Part shown: positions 570-8,871 of the stretch, piece after piece
How positions within the stretch are numbered: position 1 is the stretch's first letter
Layout of the letters: every line of letters begins with the position of its first letter
DNA from: Acidisarcina polymorpha
GTDB lineage: Bacteria > Acidobacteriota > Terriglobia > Terriglobales > Acidobacteriaceae
Length of the DNA: 64,000 bases
Assembly: GCF_003330725.1 (NCBI RefSeq)
Contig: NZ_CP030840.1
Location: 1,364,001 to 1,428,000 of the forward strand
Direction of reading: 5' to 3'
Made by a program: the position numbers and the translations under genes
Notes under the pieces: generated by a model
Database searches by the model: none
The model's input: only the letters and a program-made list of their open reading frames with translations
Told to the model about the DNA's origin: nothing

Positions 570-1649
570 CTAGAGCGCTGGTGATGGCGCGCGTACAAGT
601 AACTCGGTGCGGTCGTGACTGCTGTCCCGGTGATCGCTCCGCCCCTTGCTTCTTTTCTGGACGTACATCGCTGCATCTGCCAACGCGAGCAGATCGCCGA
701 TTGAGGAAGGATCGCAAGGACCGCATCCGACGACACCGATGCTCATCGAAAGTTGATATTGCCTTTCCATCCCCCTGTTGCAGGCATCGAGCTTGGCTTG
801 CAGCCGCTCGACAATCGCCGCATGATTGACCTCCGATGTACTCATGGCTAGAACGGCAAATTCGTCGCCGCCGAGACGCGCGATCACGTCGGACTCGCGA
901 TATGTCTGTCTGAGAACGTTGGCTATGTCGATCAGCGCCTGATCTCCTGCCGAGTGACCGAGGGAATCGTTGATTGCCTTGAATCCGTCCATGTCGGCGA
1001 ACACCAGCAAAGCCTCCGTGTTGAGCCGCCGCGCTAGATTCAGCTGTTGCTGGGCGAGCGTCAGAAATCCGCGTCGATTGGACAATTCCGTCAACTCGTC
1101 GATCAGCGACAAATTGCGCAGTTCGTCTCTGGCCTGATTTCGCAGGGTGAGATCGGTCGCTACGGCGCACACTCCGGACGAACCATGGGTATACATCGGA
1201 CTGAGCGAGAGTTGCACCGGTTCGATGGAGCCATCCTGACAACAGAAGGTCGTATCCATGGAGCAACTCTCCCTCCTGGCCCGCTCAACAAGCAGAGCTA
1301 TTTGTTCTCTGTCCTGGGAGGCGATGAAGCCAAATAAGGAATTGCCCATCACCCTCTCCAGGGGAGCCTTCAACATGGCAGACAGGCGGCCATTGCAGTA
1401 AAGCACAATCCCCTCCTCCTTCAGGATTGCGGCACCTTCGTTCATTGCTTCCACCAGGATGCGATGTGCAGACTCGATGCCGTCCAGCGTAAGCACGTGC
1501 TCTTTATGCTCTCCGATCACAAACAACGCATCGACTTGGCCACAATGAATTGCTCGCAAGGTTTCTTCCAGTTCCAACAGGCGGGCGCGCAATGTCTTGT
1601 TCTCTTCGATGAGCGCTCGTCGTGTGCTGGCTTCCGATTGCGTCTTCAT
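570..1649 (-). CDS. PAS-GGDEF diguanylate cyclase
   Basis: A 359-aa protein likely to make cyclic di-GMP from two GTP. Order: a short N-terminal coiled coil (about 10-35), a PAS-like sensor domain (about 60-170), a linker helix, then a GGDEF domain (about 180-345). The active-site loop GGDEF is intact at 260-264, and an allosteric inhibitory RxxD (RESD, 251-254) lies exactly five residues before it, so product inhibition is expected. There are no membrane segments, so it is cytoplasmic. The ATG has a GGAGG/AAGGCGGAG-type ribosome-binding region. It lies 176 nt downstream of kaiB on the same strand, so co-transcription with kaiC-kaiB is plausible but unproven. PAS ligand unknown; no EAL domain follows. 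Confidence 0.9.
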   Translation of the reverse strand: MKTQSEASTRRALIEENKTLRARLLELEETLRAIHCGQVDALFVIGEHKEHVLTLDGIESAHRILVEAMNEGAAILKEEGIVLYCNGRLSAMLKAPLERVMGNSLFGFIASQDREQIALLVERARRESCSMDTTFCCQDGSIEPVQLSLSPMYTHGSSGVCAVATDLTLRNQARDELRNLSLIDELTELSNRRGFLTLAQQQLNLARRLNTEALLVFADMDGFKAINDSLGHSAGDQALIDIANVLRQTYRESDVIARLGGDEFAVLAMSTSEVNHAAIVERLQAKLDACNRGMERQYQLSMSIGVVGCGPCDPSSIGDLLALADAAMYVQKRSKGRSDHRDSSHDRTELLVRAPSPAL

Positions 1650-1825
1650 CTCCGCCTTTCCTCCCTACGTCTAGGGTGAGGTGCGTTGACTTCCCACGAC
1701 GACGAAAGCCGCACCATCGGGTTTTGACTTGGTGCCCGCTGGATTCTAGCCGGGTCCTAATCGAGACCCACTTCATCTCGCCCGAGGCGTCCGCCGGTCA
1801 ATCCCCTTGTCTTGAACGGCAAAAT

Positions 1826-2170
1826 TCACGTTGGATGGACCAGCAAATCGAGGGCAATCAGAATACGTTCAGCGTTCGAGAAGTCCCCCACAAGCCGCCG
1901 CAGCGGCTTGGGGTAATGCCTCACTAAGGTTGGAACAGCGATGATCTGTTCATCCCGCGCCAGCACCGGTCGCTGGTAAATGTCGACGACCTCCAGCCGG
2001 TATTTGCCAGCTAGATGGTCGTCGCAGAGTCTACGAGCGTCTATGATTGCCCGCGTAGACTGGGCCGTGCCTCCAGCCACATATAAGCGCAAGAGGTAGG
2101 GCCGGTTTTTTTCATCGAGGGCTTTCGGCAAGGGAGTTGACTCGGCAATAGGGTTCTTGCGCGCGGACAT
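1826..2170 (-). CDS. kaiB: KaiB-like protein
   Basis: A 114-aa KaiB homologue. The core (about 25-108) is the thioredoxin-like KaiB domain: YLLRLYVAGGTAQS as the first strand, a helix with DARRLCDDHL, then YRLEVVDIYQRP, and the proline-containing IAVPTLVR turn that precedes the fold-switching half in cyanobacterial KaiB. In cyanobacteria KaiB binds the CI ring of KaiC; outside them KaiB-KaiC pairs are linked to stress or signalling and often lack KaiA. The gene starts 3 nt after the kaiC stop, so translational coupling is likely. A charged N-terminal extension of about 20 residues is unremarkable. A role in rhythm versus redox/stress signalling cannot be told from sequence. Confidence 0.9.
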   Translation of the reverse strand: MSARKNPIAESTPLPKALDEKNRPYLLRLYVAGGTAQSTRAIIDARRLCDDHLAGKYRLEVVDIYQRPVLARDEQIIAVPTLVRHYPKPLRRLVGDFSNAERILIALDLLVHPT

Positions 2171-2173
2171 GGG

Positions 2174-3934
2174 CTACGCTCCTTTGTTTTGCTTCGTCTT
2201 CGGATTGGGTTCGTCATCCGCCGAGGCATCGGCCCGACGCGCTTGTGCCATTTCCAAGCGGTTGGCGAGAAGCATCTTGTTCTTAGCTCCATTCTGAGCG
2301 CCCAGCTGGGCTCGTCCGCGCACCGCGATCTTCAGTTCCAACGCCAACGACTTCGACTTCGCCTGCAACGACTGAATGGACCTATCCATCTCATGCCTGC
2401 GACGCGCGAACTCTTCCTCGTCCAACAGCAGGTCCGCCGCCTCCCGGGCTTCCTGTGCCAGCCGGGCAGCGCCAGTGAGCACTCCTCCAGGTCCCACATA
2501 CACGTCCACCAACTCGATGCCGTGATCGCTCAACTGAAATTCGCGGACTTGATTGGAGTGGGCCATGCCGCGTGATTTGAGGACGTAAAGCACGCGGTTG
2601 CGTTCCCCGCCAGATTCCACGTTCCTCACCAGGATCCAAGTGTCCATCAGTGACGAAATACCGGCGTCGGTGGTCTCTTCATCTTTGCCGCCACGGGTAA
2701 GACTGGTGAACAGGGTGGTAATCTGCTTGGCTTTAAAAAAATCGATCAGCCTGGTCAACAGCGAGCTTGCCTCGTCTGCAGTTCCGCCGGACTCGAGGTT
2801 GGTGACCGGATCGATGACCACTACGCTTGGTTTGAACTCTCCGGCGATACGGTGCATCGTCACAAGATGGGTCTCCAACCCACAGAGCGTCGGCCGAGCG
2901 GCGTGGAAGAGCAGAAGCCCGCACCGGATCCAGGGTTCAAGGTCCAGACCTAGCGAGCGCATGTTGCGGATGTATTGGCTAGGCGATTCTTCGAAAAGAA
3001 AGATGAGGCAACGTTGACCGGCTGCGCACACTGAATTCGCCAAATGCGCCGCAATACTCGTCTTGCCGGTGCCGGAGCCGCCCGAGATCAAGATGCTGCT
3101 GCCCCGGTGGTACCCCCTGCCGCCCAACATTGCGTCCAGCCTCTGGATGCCGCTGAGGACTCGACCCGCCGGCGTCAGATGATTCAGCCCTACCGAAGTA
3201 ATCGGGAGTACGGAAATTCCGTGGTCACCGACGATGAATGGATACTCGTCCATGCCGTGGCGAGAGCCGCGATATTTGACGATCCGTAAACGGCGCGTCG
3301 CGAACTGGTTATTGACCCGATTGTCCAGCAGAATGACGCAGTCGGAGACATACTCTTCAAGCCCATGTCGGGTTAGGGTGCCCTCCCCCCGCTCCGCAGT
3401 AATGACCGAAGTGACTCCCTTCGCATGTAGCCAACAGAACAGACGGCGCAACTCGGAGCGAAGCAGAGCGGCATCGCTTAGGCTAGCGAAGAGCACTTCC
3501 AGCGAGTCCATCGCCACCCGCTTTGCGCCGATAGAATCGATCGCATACTCAAGCCTAACGAACAAGCCTTCCAGACTGTATGCTCCCGTTTCCAGCATCT
3601 CGCTTCGCTCGAAGTGGACATAGTCGAGCACCATCTTCTTCGCCGTGACCAGTTGCGCGAGCGGAAAGCCAAGCGACGCCAGGTTCTGGGTGAGATCTTC
3701 ACGAGTCTCTTCAAAGGCGATCAAAACACCAGGCTCATCAAACTCCATAGCGCCACGAACCAGGAACTCGGCAGCCAGGAGCGTCTTGCCGGACCCCGCT
3801 GCCCCGCACACCAGAGTGGACCGCTGCCGCGGAAGGCCGCCCTCGAGGATCTCATCCAAGCCGTGAATGCCAGTCGGCGCTTTGGGGAGAATGAGCCGGG
3901 CATAAGTCGGACGTGCGGGAGGTCGCTTTCTCAT
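2174..3934 (-). CDS. kaiC: KaiC-like double-domain ATPase
   Basis: A 586-aa protein with two RecA-like KaiC domains. CI has Walker A GAAGSGKT (about 44-51), catalytic FEE (75-76) and Walker B MDS. CII has GGSGTGKT (about 285-292), FEE (315-316) and VIDP. Both domains look ATPase-competent. The cyanobacterial phosphosites Ser431-Thr432 align with Ser-Ser (about 427-428, in GISSLMDT). After CII comes a tail of about 70-85 residues, charged and heptad-like (from RLAQEAREAADLL on), longer than the tail of the roughly 519-aa cyanobacterial protein. Two in-frame ATGs exist: 3940 directly abuts the GAAGG sequence, while 3934 sits 6 nt after it, so 3934 is chosen. It heads the kaiC-kaiB unit; no kaiA is nearby. 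Confidence 0.92.
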   Translation of the reverse strand: MRKRPPARPTYARLILPKAPTGIHGLDEILEGGLPRQRSTLVCGAAGSGKTLLAAEFLVRGAMEFDEPGVLIAFEETREDLTQNLASLGFPLAQLVTAKKMVLDYVHFERSEMLETGAYSLEGLFVRLEYAIDSIGAKRVAMDSLEVLFASLSDAALLRSELRRLFCWLHAKGVTSVITAERGEGTLTRHGLEEYVSDCVILLDNRVNNQFATRRLRIVKYRGSRHGMDEYPFIVGDHGISVLPITSVGLNHLTPAGRVLSGIQRLDAMLGGRGYHRGSSILISGGSGTGKTSIAAHLANSVCAAGQRCLIFLFEESPSQYIRNMRSLGLDLEPWIRCGLLLFHAARPTLCGLETHLVTMHRIAGEFKPSVVVIDPVTNLESGGTADEASSLLTRLIDFFKAKQITTLFTSLTRGGKDEETTDAGISSLMDTWILVRNVESGGERNRVLYVLKSRGMAHSNQVREFQLSDHGIELVDVYVGPGGVLTGAARLAQEAREAADLLLDEEEFARRRHEMDRSIQSLQAKSKSLALELKIAVRGRAQLGAQNGAKNKMLLANRLEMAQARRADASADDEPNPKTKQNKGA

Positions 3935-3940
3935 GATCAT

Positions 3941-5636: not shown

Positions 5637-5936
5637 CTAGTGCGCAGCGACGCTTCGTGCGGGGCCGCGCTTCGACTGGAAACAGTGGCGGCAGAGAACA
5701 GGGCGCCCTTGTGTGGGAAGAAAAGGGACGGTGGTGTCGGCACCGCATTGGGAACAAGTGGTACGGGTTTCCGGGCGCACACCGGAGGCTCCCGACGCCC
5801 GCTTGGCCTTGCACGGCTTACACCTTTTAGGATCATTTCTGAATTGCTGCTGGTGAAAGAACAACTGTTCTCCCGCAGTGAAGACAAAGTCACTTCCACA
5901 ATCAACACACTTCAGAACCCTATCGGCAAGCTCCAT
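5637..5936 (-). CDS. Zinc-ribbon protein with two Cys4 motifs
   Basis: A 99-aa protein with two zinc-knuckle modules. The first (about 10-45) is the probable zinc-ribbon type seen next to GEQ: CVDCGSDFVFTAGEQ, then PKRCKPCKAKR. The second (about 60-88) is CSQCGADTTVPFLP followed by GRPVLCRHCF. Eight cysteines in four CxxC pairs would bind two zinc ions. The ATG at 5936 has a strong GGGGAGGGG sequence 5-7 nt upstream. The family is widespread and uncharacterised; a nucleic-acid-binding or small regulatory role is inferred from the zinc ribbons. It is cytoplasmic and has no obvious operon partner. Confidence 0.85.
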   Translation of the reverse strand: MELADRVLKCVDCGSDFVFTAGEQLFFHQQQFRNDPKRCKPCKAKRASGASGVRPETRTTCSQCGADTTVPFLPTQGRPVLCRHCFQSKRGPARSVAAH

Positions 5937-6429
5937 TTCATCCCCTCCCCGCGTTCGCCCCTTGCAGAGGACAAACGTTCCGGCCGCGCTGATCCGCGCA
6001 CGAACCGATTCGCTGCTAGATGCATCAAGGAACTGGACTCCCCTCTACTCCGCAAGCGCCGAGGGATCTAAGAGCCGTCTCCATGAGGAAAACAGCCCTG
6101 CGATATTGCACGGCGTCAGTGCGCGTATCAAGGAAATCCGGTTTGAAGCACTACCCAGTAGAGTGGTTCGGCGACTAAGGGATAGCAGCAGAGCCCTCGA
6201 AACGAGGAATCGACTGCTTATCGCTGACTCTATTGTGAAGTGCTTTCGGGGCCCAGCCGCCATTGGAGAGCGGCTACTTCAAGCGGTTGGAAAGGAAACC
6301 GTAAGGGCTACAGGAAACTACCAGCAGAGATCGCAGGGTAAGAACATCAGTGTTACTTGGCACGGCGGGGAAGATATGTCGGACGATCTAACCCGCCGTA
6401 CTTACTCAAACTTCGTTCATGTTTCAGTA
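5937..6429. other. 493-nt region without a supported gene
   Basis: Between the zinc-ribbon gene and rpsU, both on the minus strand. Open frames exist on both strands, but none shows a recognisable domain or ribosome-binding site; the longest plus-strand frame runs on antisense through rpsU. No tRNA cloverleaf or terminator was recognised. Confidence 0.4.
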
Positions 6430-6627
6430 TTAGTCGGCTTCTTTGCGCGCCTTCTTGCGATTCCGTTTTCGCGCCAATGCTTCCTTGACGCGACGCTTTT
6501 CCCCGGGTTTCAGATAGAAGGAGTGACGCTTGACTTCCTTGATGATGTCTTCCTGCTGAACCTTCCGCTTAAACCGGCGTAGCGCGTTTTCAAGGGGTTC
6601 ACCCTCTTGAACTCGAACCTCTGCCAA
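6430..6627 (-). CDS. rpsU: 30S ribosomal protein S21
   Basis: A 65-aa S21 protein: MAEVRVQEGEPLENALRRFK, then EDIIKEVKRHSFYLKPGEKR and a long Arg/Lys tail (ARKRNRKKARKE). S21 helps initiation at the anti-Shine-Dalgarno end of 16S rRNA. The start is a TTG at 6625-6627: a full GGAGGT lies 8 nt upstream and the resulting N-terminus matches the family. The longer ATG-started frame would add nonfamily residues translated from the Shine-Dalgarno itself. It is a single gene, divergent from the carbonic anhydrase. Confidence 0.93.
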   Translation of the reverse strand: MAEVRVQEGEPLENALRRFKRKVQQEDIIKEVKRHSFYLKPGEKRRVKEALARKRNRKKARKEAD

Positions 6628-6836
6628 AAGAAATACACCTCCAAACATCCCCACGTGGGCTCTTTTATGATACTTCAATTCAGCGGATTTTTCTGCGATC
6701 CCGGGCATGAATTCAGCCTAAGTCGCGAGCAAACCAGCTGAGCGTGTGGAGAGATCTCGGACTTTGCTGCAGAGTTGGTGCAATGAGGTTCGCGATAGAC
6801 TGCGAATTGACCACTTTTTACCTTAAGGCAGGTTTC

Positions 6837-7361
6837 ATGATTCGGTCTTATCAAGGACATTCTCCCATCATCCCAGCGAGCTGCTACATCGATCTGTCGG
6901 CGCAGGTAATCGGCGACGTCCGCTTGGGCGAAAATTCCAGCATCTGGATGAATGCGGTGGTCCGAGGCGATGTTCATTCCATTCGAATCGGGGCAAACTC
7001 CAACGTGCAGGATTGTTCTGTTCTCCATGGGATGCGTTACAAATATCCAGTCGTTATTGGCGATTGGGTCACAATTGGCCATAACGCGACCGTGCACGGA
7101 TGCGTGATCGAAGACGCCTGTCTTATCGGGATGGGCGCGGTGGTACTCAATGACGCAAGGATCGGAGAAGGATCCATCATCGCCGCCGGGGCGGTGGTTC
7201 CGGAGCATACTGTGATCGAGCCGAACAGCCTATGGGCCGGAGTGCCAGCAAAGCAGCGTCGCAAGCTGGAAGGAAGCGATCGGGAGATGATTCTTCAATA
7301 CGCGCGGAACTACGTTGATTATGTGGCGATCTATCTGCAGGAGCAGGAGATTGGAAGTTGA
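6837..7361 (+). CDS. Gamma-class carbonic anhydrase / YrdA-type hexapeptide protein
   Basis: A 174-aa left-handed beta-helix protein built of hexapeptide repeats (for example VIGDVRLGENSSIW). The three zinc-ligand histidines of gamma carbonic anhydrases are present at about 64 (VLHG), 82 and 87 (IGHNATVHG), spaced as in the archaeal Cam enzyme. The family hydrates CO2 in some members; many bacterial YrdA/PaaY-like proteins have weak or unknown activity, and the acidic proton-shuttle loop of Cam is not evident. The ATG at 6837 gives the family-typical N-terminus; its ribosome-binding site is weak. Cytoplasmic trimer expected. It lies 190 nt ahead of hisS. Confidence 0.88.
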   Translation: MIRSYQGHSPIIPASCYIDLSAQVIGDVRLGENSSIWMNAVVRGDVHSIRIGANSNVQDCSVLHGMRYKYPVVIGDWVTIGHNATVHGCVIEDACLIGMGAVVLNDARIGEGSIIAAGAVVPEHTVIEPNSLWAGVPAKQRRKLEGSDREMILQYARNYVDYVAIYLQEQEIGS

Positions 7362-7551
7362 ACATATGGCGGTATCTGAGCCCGGTCCTCGCGCAAGCGC
7401 ATCAGAGCATTCAACTTCTTGCCCTCTCGAACGAACTGCTTCTTCATTGCCCTTGCTGCTACTCCGTTGGGGACGACCTATCACTTCGCATCAGCTAGCT
7501 TCCATCTTCGGTAGACTTATATAACACGAGGAAAAGAGAAGCTACCCAAGC

Positions 7552-8871
7552 ATGAGTATCTTGAAGGCTGTACGCGGCACCCGGGATTTATTGCCGCCCG
7601 AAACCGAAATCTGGAATCACATCGAGAACACGGCACGCTCAGTCTTCGGCCGCTACAGCTTCGGCGAGATCCGCACGCCGATCTTTGAAGATACCCAGCT
7701 CTTCGCCCGTGGCGTGGGCGAGGAGACCGACATTGTTGCGAAGGAAATGTATACCTGGGAAGACCGAGCACGCGCCCAATCAGAGAAGGCGCAATCGCTG
7801 ACTCTCCGCCCCGAGAATACGGCCGGGGTGGTTCGGGCCTACATCGAGCACGGCCTGGGCGAATCGGGGATGCTGCAAAAGCTCTATTACATCGGGCCGC
7901 AGTTCCGCCGGGAGCGTCCGCAGAAGGGCCGCTACCGCCAGTTCTACCAGATCGGGGCAGAAGTGATCGGGCCGCCGAGCGCGGGTTCCGAGTCTCCGCT
8001 GCGGGACGCCGAGGTGCTCGAGATGCTGGCCACTTTTCTCAATGAACTCGGCATCACCGGCTGGAAGCTGCTGATCAACTCGGTCGGCTCGGCGAGCGAT
8101 CGTCCGCGCTACATCGCCGCGCTCAGAGAGGCGCTCAGGGATGTTGCGCCAACCATGTGCATCGATTGCCAGAGGCGAGCGGAGACCAACCCCTTGCGGG
8201 TGCTGGACTGCAAAGTCCCCGAAGACCAGCCGATTATCGAGACTTTGCCGCGCATTGCCGATTATCTCGACGAAGCATCGCAGGCGCATTTCGCTGCCGT
8301 TCGCGCAGCGCTTGATACCTGTGGCGTGGCGTATGAGATCAGTCATCGTCTGGTGCGCGGGTTAGATTACTACACCCGAACGACCTTCGAATTTCAGGTC
8401 CAAAGCGAAGAAGGAGGTCTCGGCGCACAGAATGCCCTGCTCGGCGGTGGCCGTTACGACGGGCTCTCCGAGATGATCGGCGGCCCGAAGGCGCCCGGGA
8501 TCGGCTTCGCCATCGGCGCGGACCGGTTGGTGCTGACCCTGGAGGCGCAAGCCGGGCAGATCGCACCTAGGCTCGCAGACGCCTACATTGCTCCGCTCGG
8601 CGAAGGGCTGAATCCGGCCGGGTTGCTGTTGGCCCGGGAGTTGCGTCGTGCAGGATTGCGGATTGAGGTGGGCGACGGAGGATTCCGGCTCAAGAAATCG
8701 TTCGAAACCGGAAACAAGCTGGCCCGCAACATCGTGCTGTTGGGCGAAGATGAGCTGCACTCCGGTATCCTGACAGTAAAGAATTTTGCCAGCGGCGAGC
8801 AGACGAAAATTGCACGGGGGGAACTTGCCTTCGCGCTGAATCCGGACAGCCATAGCTCGCCCCAAGAATAG
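7552..8871 (+). CDS. hisS: Histidine-tRNA ligase
   Basis: A 439-aa class II aminoacyl-tRNA synthetase. Motif 1 region: AVRGTRDLLPPE and the following FGEIRTPIFED. Motif 2: YYIGPQFRRERPQKGRYRQF. The histidine-specific loop is RGLDYYTRTTFEF, and motif 3 lies near GGGRYDGL and PGIGFAIGADRL. The C-terminal anticodon-binding domain covers about 340-430. Length is normal for bacterial HisRS. GAGGAAAAGAGAAG upstream supports the ATG. It is followed after 8 nt by aspS, a common hisS-aspS pair, so a single transcript is likely. Confidence 0.97.
   Translation: MSILKAVRGTRDLLPPETEIWNHIENTARSVFGRYSFGEIRTPIFEDTQLFARGVGEETDIVAKEMYTWEDRARAQSEKAQSLTLRPENTAGVVRAYIEHGLGESGMLQKLYYIGPQFRRERPQKGRYRQFYQIGAEVIGPPSAGSESPLRDAEVLEMLATFLNELGITGWKLLINSVGSASDRPRYIAALREALRDVAPTMCIDCQRRAETNPLRVLDCKVPEDQPIIETLPRIADYLDEASQAHFAAVRAALDTCGVAYEISHRLVRGLDYYTRTTFEFQVQSEEGGLGAQNALLGGGRYDGLSEMIGGPKAPGIGFAIGADRLVLTLEAQAGQIAPRLADAYIAPLGEGLNPAGLLLARELRRAGLRIEVGDGGFRLKKSFETGNKLARNIVLLGEDELHSGILTVKNFASGEQTKIARGELAFALNPDSHSSPQE

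Follow-up and report, generated by a model that had tools for sequence, protein, structure and literature searches.

KaiB-KaiC pairs are found in many bacteria outside the cyanobacteria, and here we examine one from the acidobacterium Acidisarcina polymorpha in which kaiC and kaiB are followed by a gene for a PAS-GGDEF diguanylate cyclase; it lies in a 64,000-nucleotide stretch of contig NZ_CP030840.1 (positions 1,364,001 to 1,428,000), the whole of which we call the window. Like the window, Legionella pneumophila has a KaiB-KaiC operon outside the cyanobacteria, and we take that operon to contain a PAS-GGDEF-EAL gene. In cyanobacteria the dedicated KaiC-reading kinase is SasA (PMC13001216), which has a KaiB-like N-terminal domain (PMC3164672); KaiA is described as known only from cyanobacteria (PMC11832031). 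The KaiBC system of Rhodobacter (Cereibacter) sphaeroides is described as an hourglass timer that the ATP/ADP ratio resets; its KaiC is dodecameric by way of a coiled coil and is phosphorylated at Ser413-Ser414 (PMC10076222). The "circadian clock operon" of Bradyrhizobium has the order kaiC-kaiB-PAS kinase-CheY-like gene (PMC3899966); compared by description only, it shares a PAS signalling gene with the window, but its output is a histidine kinase, unlike the GGDEF domain found here. De Luca et al. reported in 2011 that kaiC-kaiB can be followed by a histidine kinase or GGDEF/EAL gene (PMC3164672), so the arrangement itself is not new, contrary to a first-pass annotation of this DNA, which knew of no described KaiC-GGDEF output module.

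Our finding concerns the N-terminal part of the cyclase. Because it carries the module of kai-linked histidine kinases, the window cyclase appears to belong to the kai cassette as its partner protein, GGDEF serving as the catalytic part. The features on which the analysis turns are as follows:

2174..3940, minus strand: kaiC, 588 amino acids (aa), two KaiC ATPase domains and a C-terminal extension
2216..2473, minus strand: KaiC C-terminal extension, approximately residues 490-575, alignable with the R. sphaeroides KaiC coiled-coil tail
2651..2656, minus strand: codons of KaiC Ser429-Ser430, aligned with R. sphaeroides KaiC Ser413-Ser414
1826..2170, minus strand: kaiB, 114 aa, beginning 3 nucleotides (nt) past the kaiC stop
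1650..1825, minus strand: kaiB-cyclase spacer, 176 nt, with a GGAGG ribosome-binding-like stretch at its end, before the cyclase ATG
570..1649, minus strand: PAS-GGDEF diguanylate cyclase gene, 359 aa, with Pfam, NCBIfam and solved-structure matches
1137..1613, minus strand: kai-linked module, cyclase residues 13-171 (end of the long helix, hairpin and PAS), from homology and the AlphaFold2 model
645..1106, minus strand: GGDEF catalytic domain, residues 182-335 (Pfam)
858..899, minus strand: RESD inhibition-site and GGDEF active-site motifs, residues 251-264, by motif reading

The open reading frames (3940-2174, 2170-1826 and 1649-570, all on the minus strand) bear out the layout given in the first-pass annotation, with kaiC and kaiB 3 nt apart and the cyclase 176 nt further on; an alternative kaiC start at 3934 is the second ATG, two codons inside the longer frame. 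The KaiC assignment is carried by Pfam (1.8e-103) and by NCBIfam PRK09302 (690 bits against a cut-off of 408), while TIGR02655 scores it below its cut-off (335 vs 546 bits). The nearest solved structure is that of R. sphaeroides KaiC (8dba, residues 18-574, 3.6e-176), and the two proteins are alike in having 55% identity over residues 11-490, a Ser-Ser pair and a C-terminal extension. Both Walker A motifs (46 and 287) and the Glu pairs 77/78 and 317/318 are in place; Ser429-Ser430, an adjacent pair in the second domain aligned with that of R. sphaeroides, are the predicted phosphorylation sites, and the C-terminal extension aligns in sequence with the coiled coil that makes the R. sphaeroides dodecamer. 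KaiB is recognised by Pfam (6.5e-23, 80.7 bits against a cut-off of 27) and scores under the cut-offs of two NCBIfam KaiB equivalog models. The cyclase matches the PAS (1.4e-12) and GGDEF (4.5e-39) families and, as also noted at first pass, is intact: RESD (251-254) stands five residues ahead of an unbroken GGDEF motif (260-264), and the protein is predicted to be active. The 7.6-Mb genome (five contigs) has 19 GGDEF domains, a single KaiB, which is the window's, and one KaiC of the window's kind, next to two long KaiC-domain matches (28-29% identity) and two short weak ones.

In the AlphaFold2 model of the cyclase (mean predicted local distance difference test score 85.5, predicted template modelling score 0.60) a helix (2-35) and a low-confidence hairpin (41-54) precede the PAS domain, and a linker helix (168-178) leads into GGDEF. 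Among solved structures, those of PAS-GGDEF(-EAL) proteins have the most similar folds; PA0861 and 8c05, a LOV-activated cyclase, have the same order and fold of PAS and GGDEF, and cyclases of this type are not known as Kai partners. Residues 1-171 (helix, hairpin and PAS) are homologous to the N-terminal part of the kinases encoded behind kaiB in relatives, which are histidine kinases. Among genes behind kaiB at loci of the same order, 28 of 29 matches have expect values (E) from 2.9e-40 to 6.3e-17, the 29th (3.6e-11) being a 70-residue fragment at a contig end. With that fragment excluded, 11 to 29 of at most 52 aligned positions are identical in residues 13-64, ahead of PAS, and 30 to 49 of 103 to 107 in the PAS part. 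The module also occurs in a described system: on plasmid pB of R. sphaeroides 2.4.1, kaiC and kaiB are followed by an HWE histidine kinase whose residues 5-99 match it at 8e-24, the difference being that the output there is the kinase and in the window GGDEF. Unlike SasA, the window cyclase has no KaiB/SasA match in Pfam or NCBIfam, carries helix-hairpin-PAS, and has GGDEF instead of a histidine kinase; a SasA-like reader was rejected for want of a KaiB-like domain. The portion of the De Luca account available to us makes no mention of an N-terminal module common to the kinases and cyclases of kaiB cassettes, and the RtaNt domain named there belongs to cassettes without kaiB (PMC3164672). More broadly, in the partly accessible literature on KaiC/KaiB with GGDEF or cyclic di-GMP (c-di-GMP) we met neither an N-terminal module described as shared nor a swap of kinase for cyclase, a weak negative, and found no literature on KaiC/KaiB with a histidine kinase in Acidobacteria.

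A close association of the module with kai genes is evident from the genome surveys, in which genomes and loci are cited by our G and L labels. In its own genome the module occurs once (next-best match E 0.19). It is present (E <= 1e-9) in 32 of 298 genomes of the order, namely in 30 of the 38 that are KaiC-positive (E <= 1e-100) and in 2 of the other 260, a contrast whose Fisher test treats genomes as unrelated; the KaiC, full-cyclase and class-wide searches scored no more than the top 4 to 6 first-look candidates from each genome and so may have missed weaker or additional copies. Of the two module-positive genomes outside the KaiC-positive set, G248 has kaiB and pieces of kaiC adjoining the module gene, and in G288 the copy lies at the edge of its contig and no KaiB was found. 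The eight KaiC-positive genomes with no module match are G058, G071, G081, G119, G257, G072, G260 and G271; in G058 the module is truncated at a contig end, G071 has a different KaiC subfamily, and in G072, G260 and G271 the contig terminates about 1 kb or less behind kaiC or kaiB. Conversely, kaiB lies directly upstream (same strand, <= 900 nt from the KaiB domain) of 32/33 module proteins in the order set, the window's aside, with the exception at a contig edge; of 64/69 in a scan of GTDB contigs; of 15/15 at KaiB loci of the phylum; and of 4/4 on plasmids, these four sets overlapping. The five remaining proteins of the GTDB scan are two at contig edges and three unlinked ones (L161, L177 and a second copy in L133). 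The 68 loci of the GTDB scan span 13 named phyla; having been picked with a single short peptide pattern, they are biased towards relatives that carry this motif. In the myxobacterial locus L133 two module proteins lie in opposite orientation (2003-2527 and 5678-8170), one behind kaiC-kaiB-kaiB and the other with no kai neighbour; two tandem kaiB genes between kaiC and the module protein occur in many relatives (several of L037-L073 and L208-L226), where the window has one. A phage link was also considered and rejected: none of 15 viral-contig matches to the peptide pattern encodes a module relative, and the three matches of the whole cyclase to phage records at E <= 1e-20 reach just 28-33% identity.

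What follows the module is almost always a kinase. Pfam finds HATPase_c in 27 of 28 module proteins and GGDEF in one, the window's, the count including the window's protein and excluding six of the 33 others of the order set (L043 and L072, cut by contig ends, and L107-L110, fetched later); GGDEF is missing from all 15 module proteins at the 26 KaiB loci surveyed across the phylum. From this count and the module homology, the window cyclase is, at the level of sequence, the usual kai-linked protein with a cyclase replacing the kinase half. In alignment the kinase and cyclase versions diverge at the linker helix after PAS, which makes it plausible that a coiled coil sets the GGDEF dimer. The full-length cyclase (E <= 1e-60) was found in the window's genome only, among the 298 of the order. 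The first-pass annotation proposed a survey of the gene order kaiC-kaiB-GGDEF: among the 38 KaiC-positive genomes surveyed, a GGDEF protein stands behind kaiB in just G000 and G071, the following gene being lost at contig ends in some. The fusion recurs further afield. In L111 (Acidobacterium sp. palsa_343) a module-GGDEF protein of 371 aa accompanies kaiB; in L114 (Gammaproteobacteria Ga0077536) kaiC and kaiB are accompanied by one of 730 aa that bears additional PAS domains; and L177 (Propionibacteriales) has a module-GGDEF-EAL protein. The fusion was not found (E <= 1e-50) in the other 35 of 36 genomes of L114's order, and in its class 4 of 369 genomes match at E <= 1e-45, L114's own with the full fusion. 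The other three (G771, G926 and G725) have a near GGDEF inside large proteins, and the short loci around these gave no KaiB or KaiC match.

The window KaiC is 68% identical to that of G031, the closest found, and 63% identical to that of L114, other KaiC matches of the order over more than 400 residues reaching at most 59% and the shorter G209 and G058 61-62%. In quick trees, supported by the Shimodaira-Hasegawa-like approximate likelihood ratio test (SH-aLRT) only, the window, G031 and L114 form one KaiC clade (99), and the modules of the window, L111, L114 and the G031 kinase form one clade (98). The GGDEF trees took in 30 of 101 genome-search matches, including 7 of the 19 from the window's genome, not counting the window cyclase, together with those of L128, L212 and L216 and the kai-linked ones; in the final tree, which was made with care and to which three from L114's class were added, the domains of the window, L111 and L114 form one clade (99/97). 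This clade is nested in a group with three gammaproteobacterial GGDEFs, which had been picked by likeness, and the remaining GGDEFs of the tree, 33 genomic and 3 others, fall outside the group. The genes flanking the window cassette have no match at 1e-5 to the flanks of L111, L114, G031 or L112, so only the cassette is kept as a unit, and the simplest history suggested by these comparisons is a single fusion followed by transfer of the cassette between phyla. The closest KaiC relative, G031, has a module kinase and not a cyclase, and since this kinase falls inside the clade, a reversal or an unresolved branching order is possible. The first-pass annotation had held that neighbours varying freely in close relatives would speak against the association; the outcome is mixed, in that the module proves nearly constant behind kaiB but the catalytic part varies, as G031 illustrates. 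The L177 protein is probably a separate fusion event, since its module groups with actinobacterial kinases (99).

Cassettes of other composition were also seen. L070 (G071) and L152, a betaproteobacterium, have a PAS-GGDEF-EAL protein straight behind kaiB, as in the window, but differ in their KaiC subfamily (36-38% identity, clade support 99), in the EAL domain and in having no module; they are a second kind of kaiC-kaiB-cyclase cassette (L070:5836-10303, L152:326-8436), and in L152 a kaiB-module-kinase pair stands beside it on the other strand. In G257 and G119 a 119-aa protein with no Pfam match lies behind kaiC-kaiB (L053:5259-5618, L065:7759-8118), and in L065 a weakly receiver-like protein immediately precedes kaiC.

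The explanation we favour, at a probability of roughly 0.55, is a kaiC-kaiB timer with its own reader protein, the kinase half of which has been swapped for GGDEF, so that c-di-GMP would be the output of the KaiBC timer; a partner protein with a swapped output favours c-di-GMP in that role. Its sequence-based parts are the genes with their motifs, the homology of the module, the swap and the common origin of the GGDEF domains. In the usual cassettes the reader would be a histidine kinase whose N-terminal module of coil, hairpin and PAS responds to the complex of KaiC and KaiB, and in the window lineage the kinase half would have been replaced by GGDEF at the helix after PAS. By analogy with the ATP/ADP-reset phosphorylation cycle of R. 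sphaeroides, high ATP would lead to KaiC autophosphorylation, and rising ADP would lead KaiB to bind KaiC and favour dephosphorylation. The module may then sense one KaiC state, directly or via KaiB, and its coiled coil may switch the GGDEF dimer on or off, giving c-di-GMP in amounts that the intact RxxD site would limit. The first-pass annotation had likewise proposed c-di-GMP as the output of the Kai pair; the kai-kinase module on the cyclase partly supports that proposal, of which the binding, the output direction, the co-transcription and the mechanism are what we infer.

Several observations weigh against this explanation, and some of them suit other ones. The distance from the kaiB stop to the module start is about 216 nt in the window, counted to module residue 14 as placed by hand; the median for 115 module proteins is 68, and just one of these has a larger spacing. 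A simple consensus scan of the 176-nt gap found no promoter- or terminator-like site, and a terminator separating kaiB and the cyclase was rejected on that ground. A wide gap, together with the full-length cyclase being found in just 1 of 298 genomes of the order (best 6 candidates per genome), would suit an unrelated cyclase gene that had come to lie behind kaiB by chance. We consider this highly improbable and reject it, as it is contradicted by the homology of the cyclase N-terminus to the usual kaiB neighbour and by like fusions behind kaiB in L111 and L114; with 19 GGDEF domains in 7.6 Mb and one KaiB, that homology places the kaiC-kaiB-cyclase adjacency beyond chance. The gap also suits a co-regulated neighbour, in which PAS senses its own ligand and controls the cyclase with no Kai contact, only expression being common. 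PAS-GGDEF is a known architecture with solved examples, and the PAS domain might work by itself, through a small ligand. Moreover, in L111 kaiC is deleted except for approximately its first 30 codons, which continue, out of frame, into a kaiB that has lost its beginning and resumes near codon 36 (L111:5614-5979); the genome has no KaiC match at E <= 1e-10, so that, assembly error aside, the cyclase remains there in the absence of KaiC. We nevertheless think co-regulation alone unlikely, given that in the sets searched the module hardly occurs outside kai loci and that the fusion occurs with kai genes in two phyla.

The same module homology and kaiB linkage would be seen if the module protein were an input, sensing a signal such as a PAS ligand or redox state and feeding KaiC-KaiB via c-di-GMP, GTP use or contact. 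The R. sphaeroides kaiBC kinase has been suggested to pass a redox signal to KaiBC (PMC5520375), and in Synechococcus altered c-di-GMP shifts the phase and period of the clock, the opposite direction to the output proposed for the window, although dissolved c-di-GMP had no consistent in vitro effect on the Kai proteins (PMC13001216). A catalytic swap with the module kept would fit reading the Kai state better than writing it, and we regard an input role, too, as improbable. The link between module and Kai proteins has exceptions of its own: G081, G119 and G257 have KaiC-KaiB but show no module; L161 carries the module with no kai gene seen on its short contig; for L177, kai genes are missing from the 7-kb contig, and the genome gave no KaiC match at E <= 1e-10. 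In addition, 4 of the 26 KaiB loci of the phylum survey have a Crp-type regulator (cNMP_binding and HTH_Crp_2; L221:5345-6031, L223:6755-7432, L225:6513-7265, L226:5238-5939), not a module kinase, behind kaiC-kaiB-kaiB, possibly a third kind of output.

For KaiB-KaiC pairs outside the cyanobacteria, a constant module with a changing catalytic half points to a reader domain. More tentatively, the module may be a transferable "Kai reader" that occurs in many phyla, reads the ATP/ADP-driven KaiC-KaiB state and plugs into varied catalytic outputs, here coupling an hourglass to c-di-GMP. The module is a short, testable protein, and because a GGDEF output is easy to assay, signalling from a KaiBC timer would become a simple reconstitution with a chemical read-out. 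If the proposal is true, energy state or time of day could set behaviour that is controlled by c-di-GMP, for example a motile-sessile switch.

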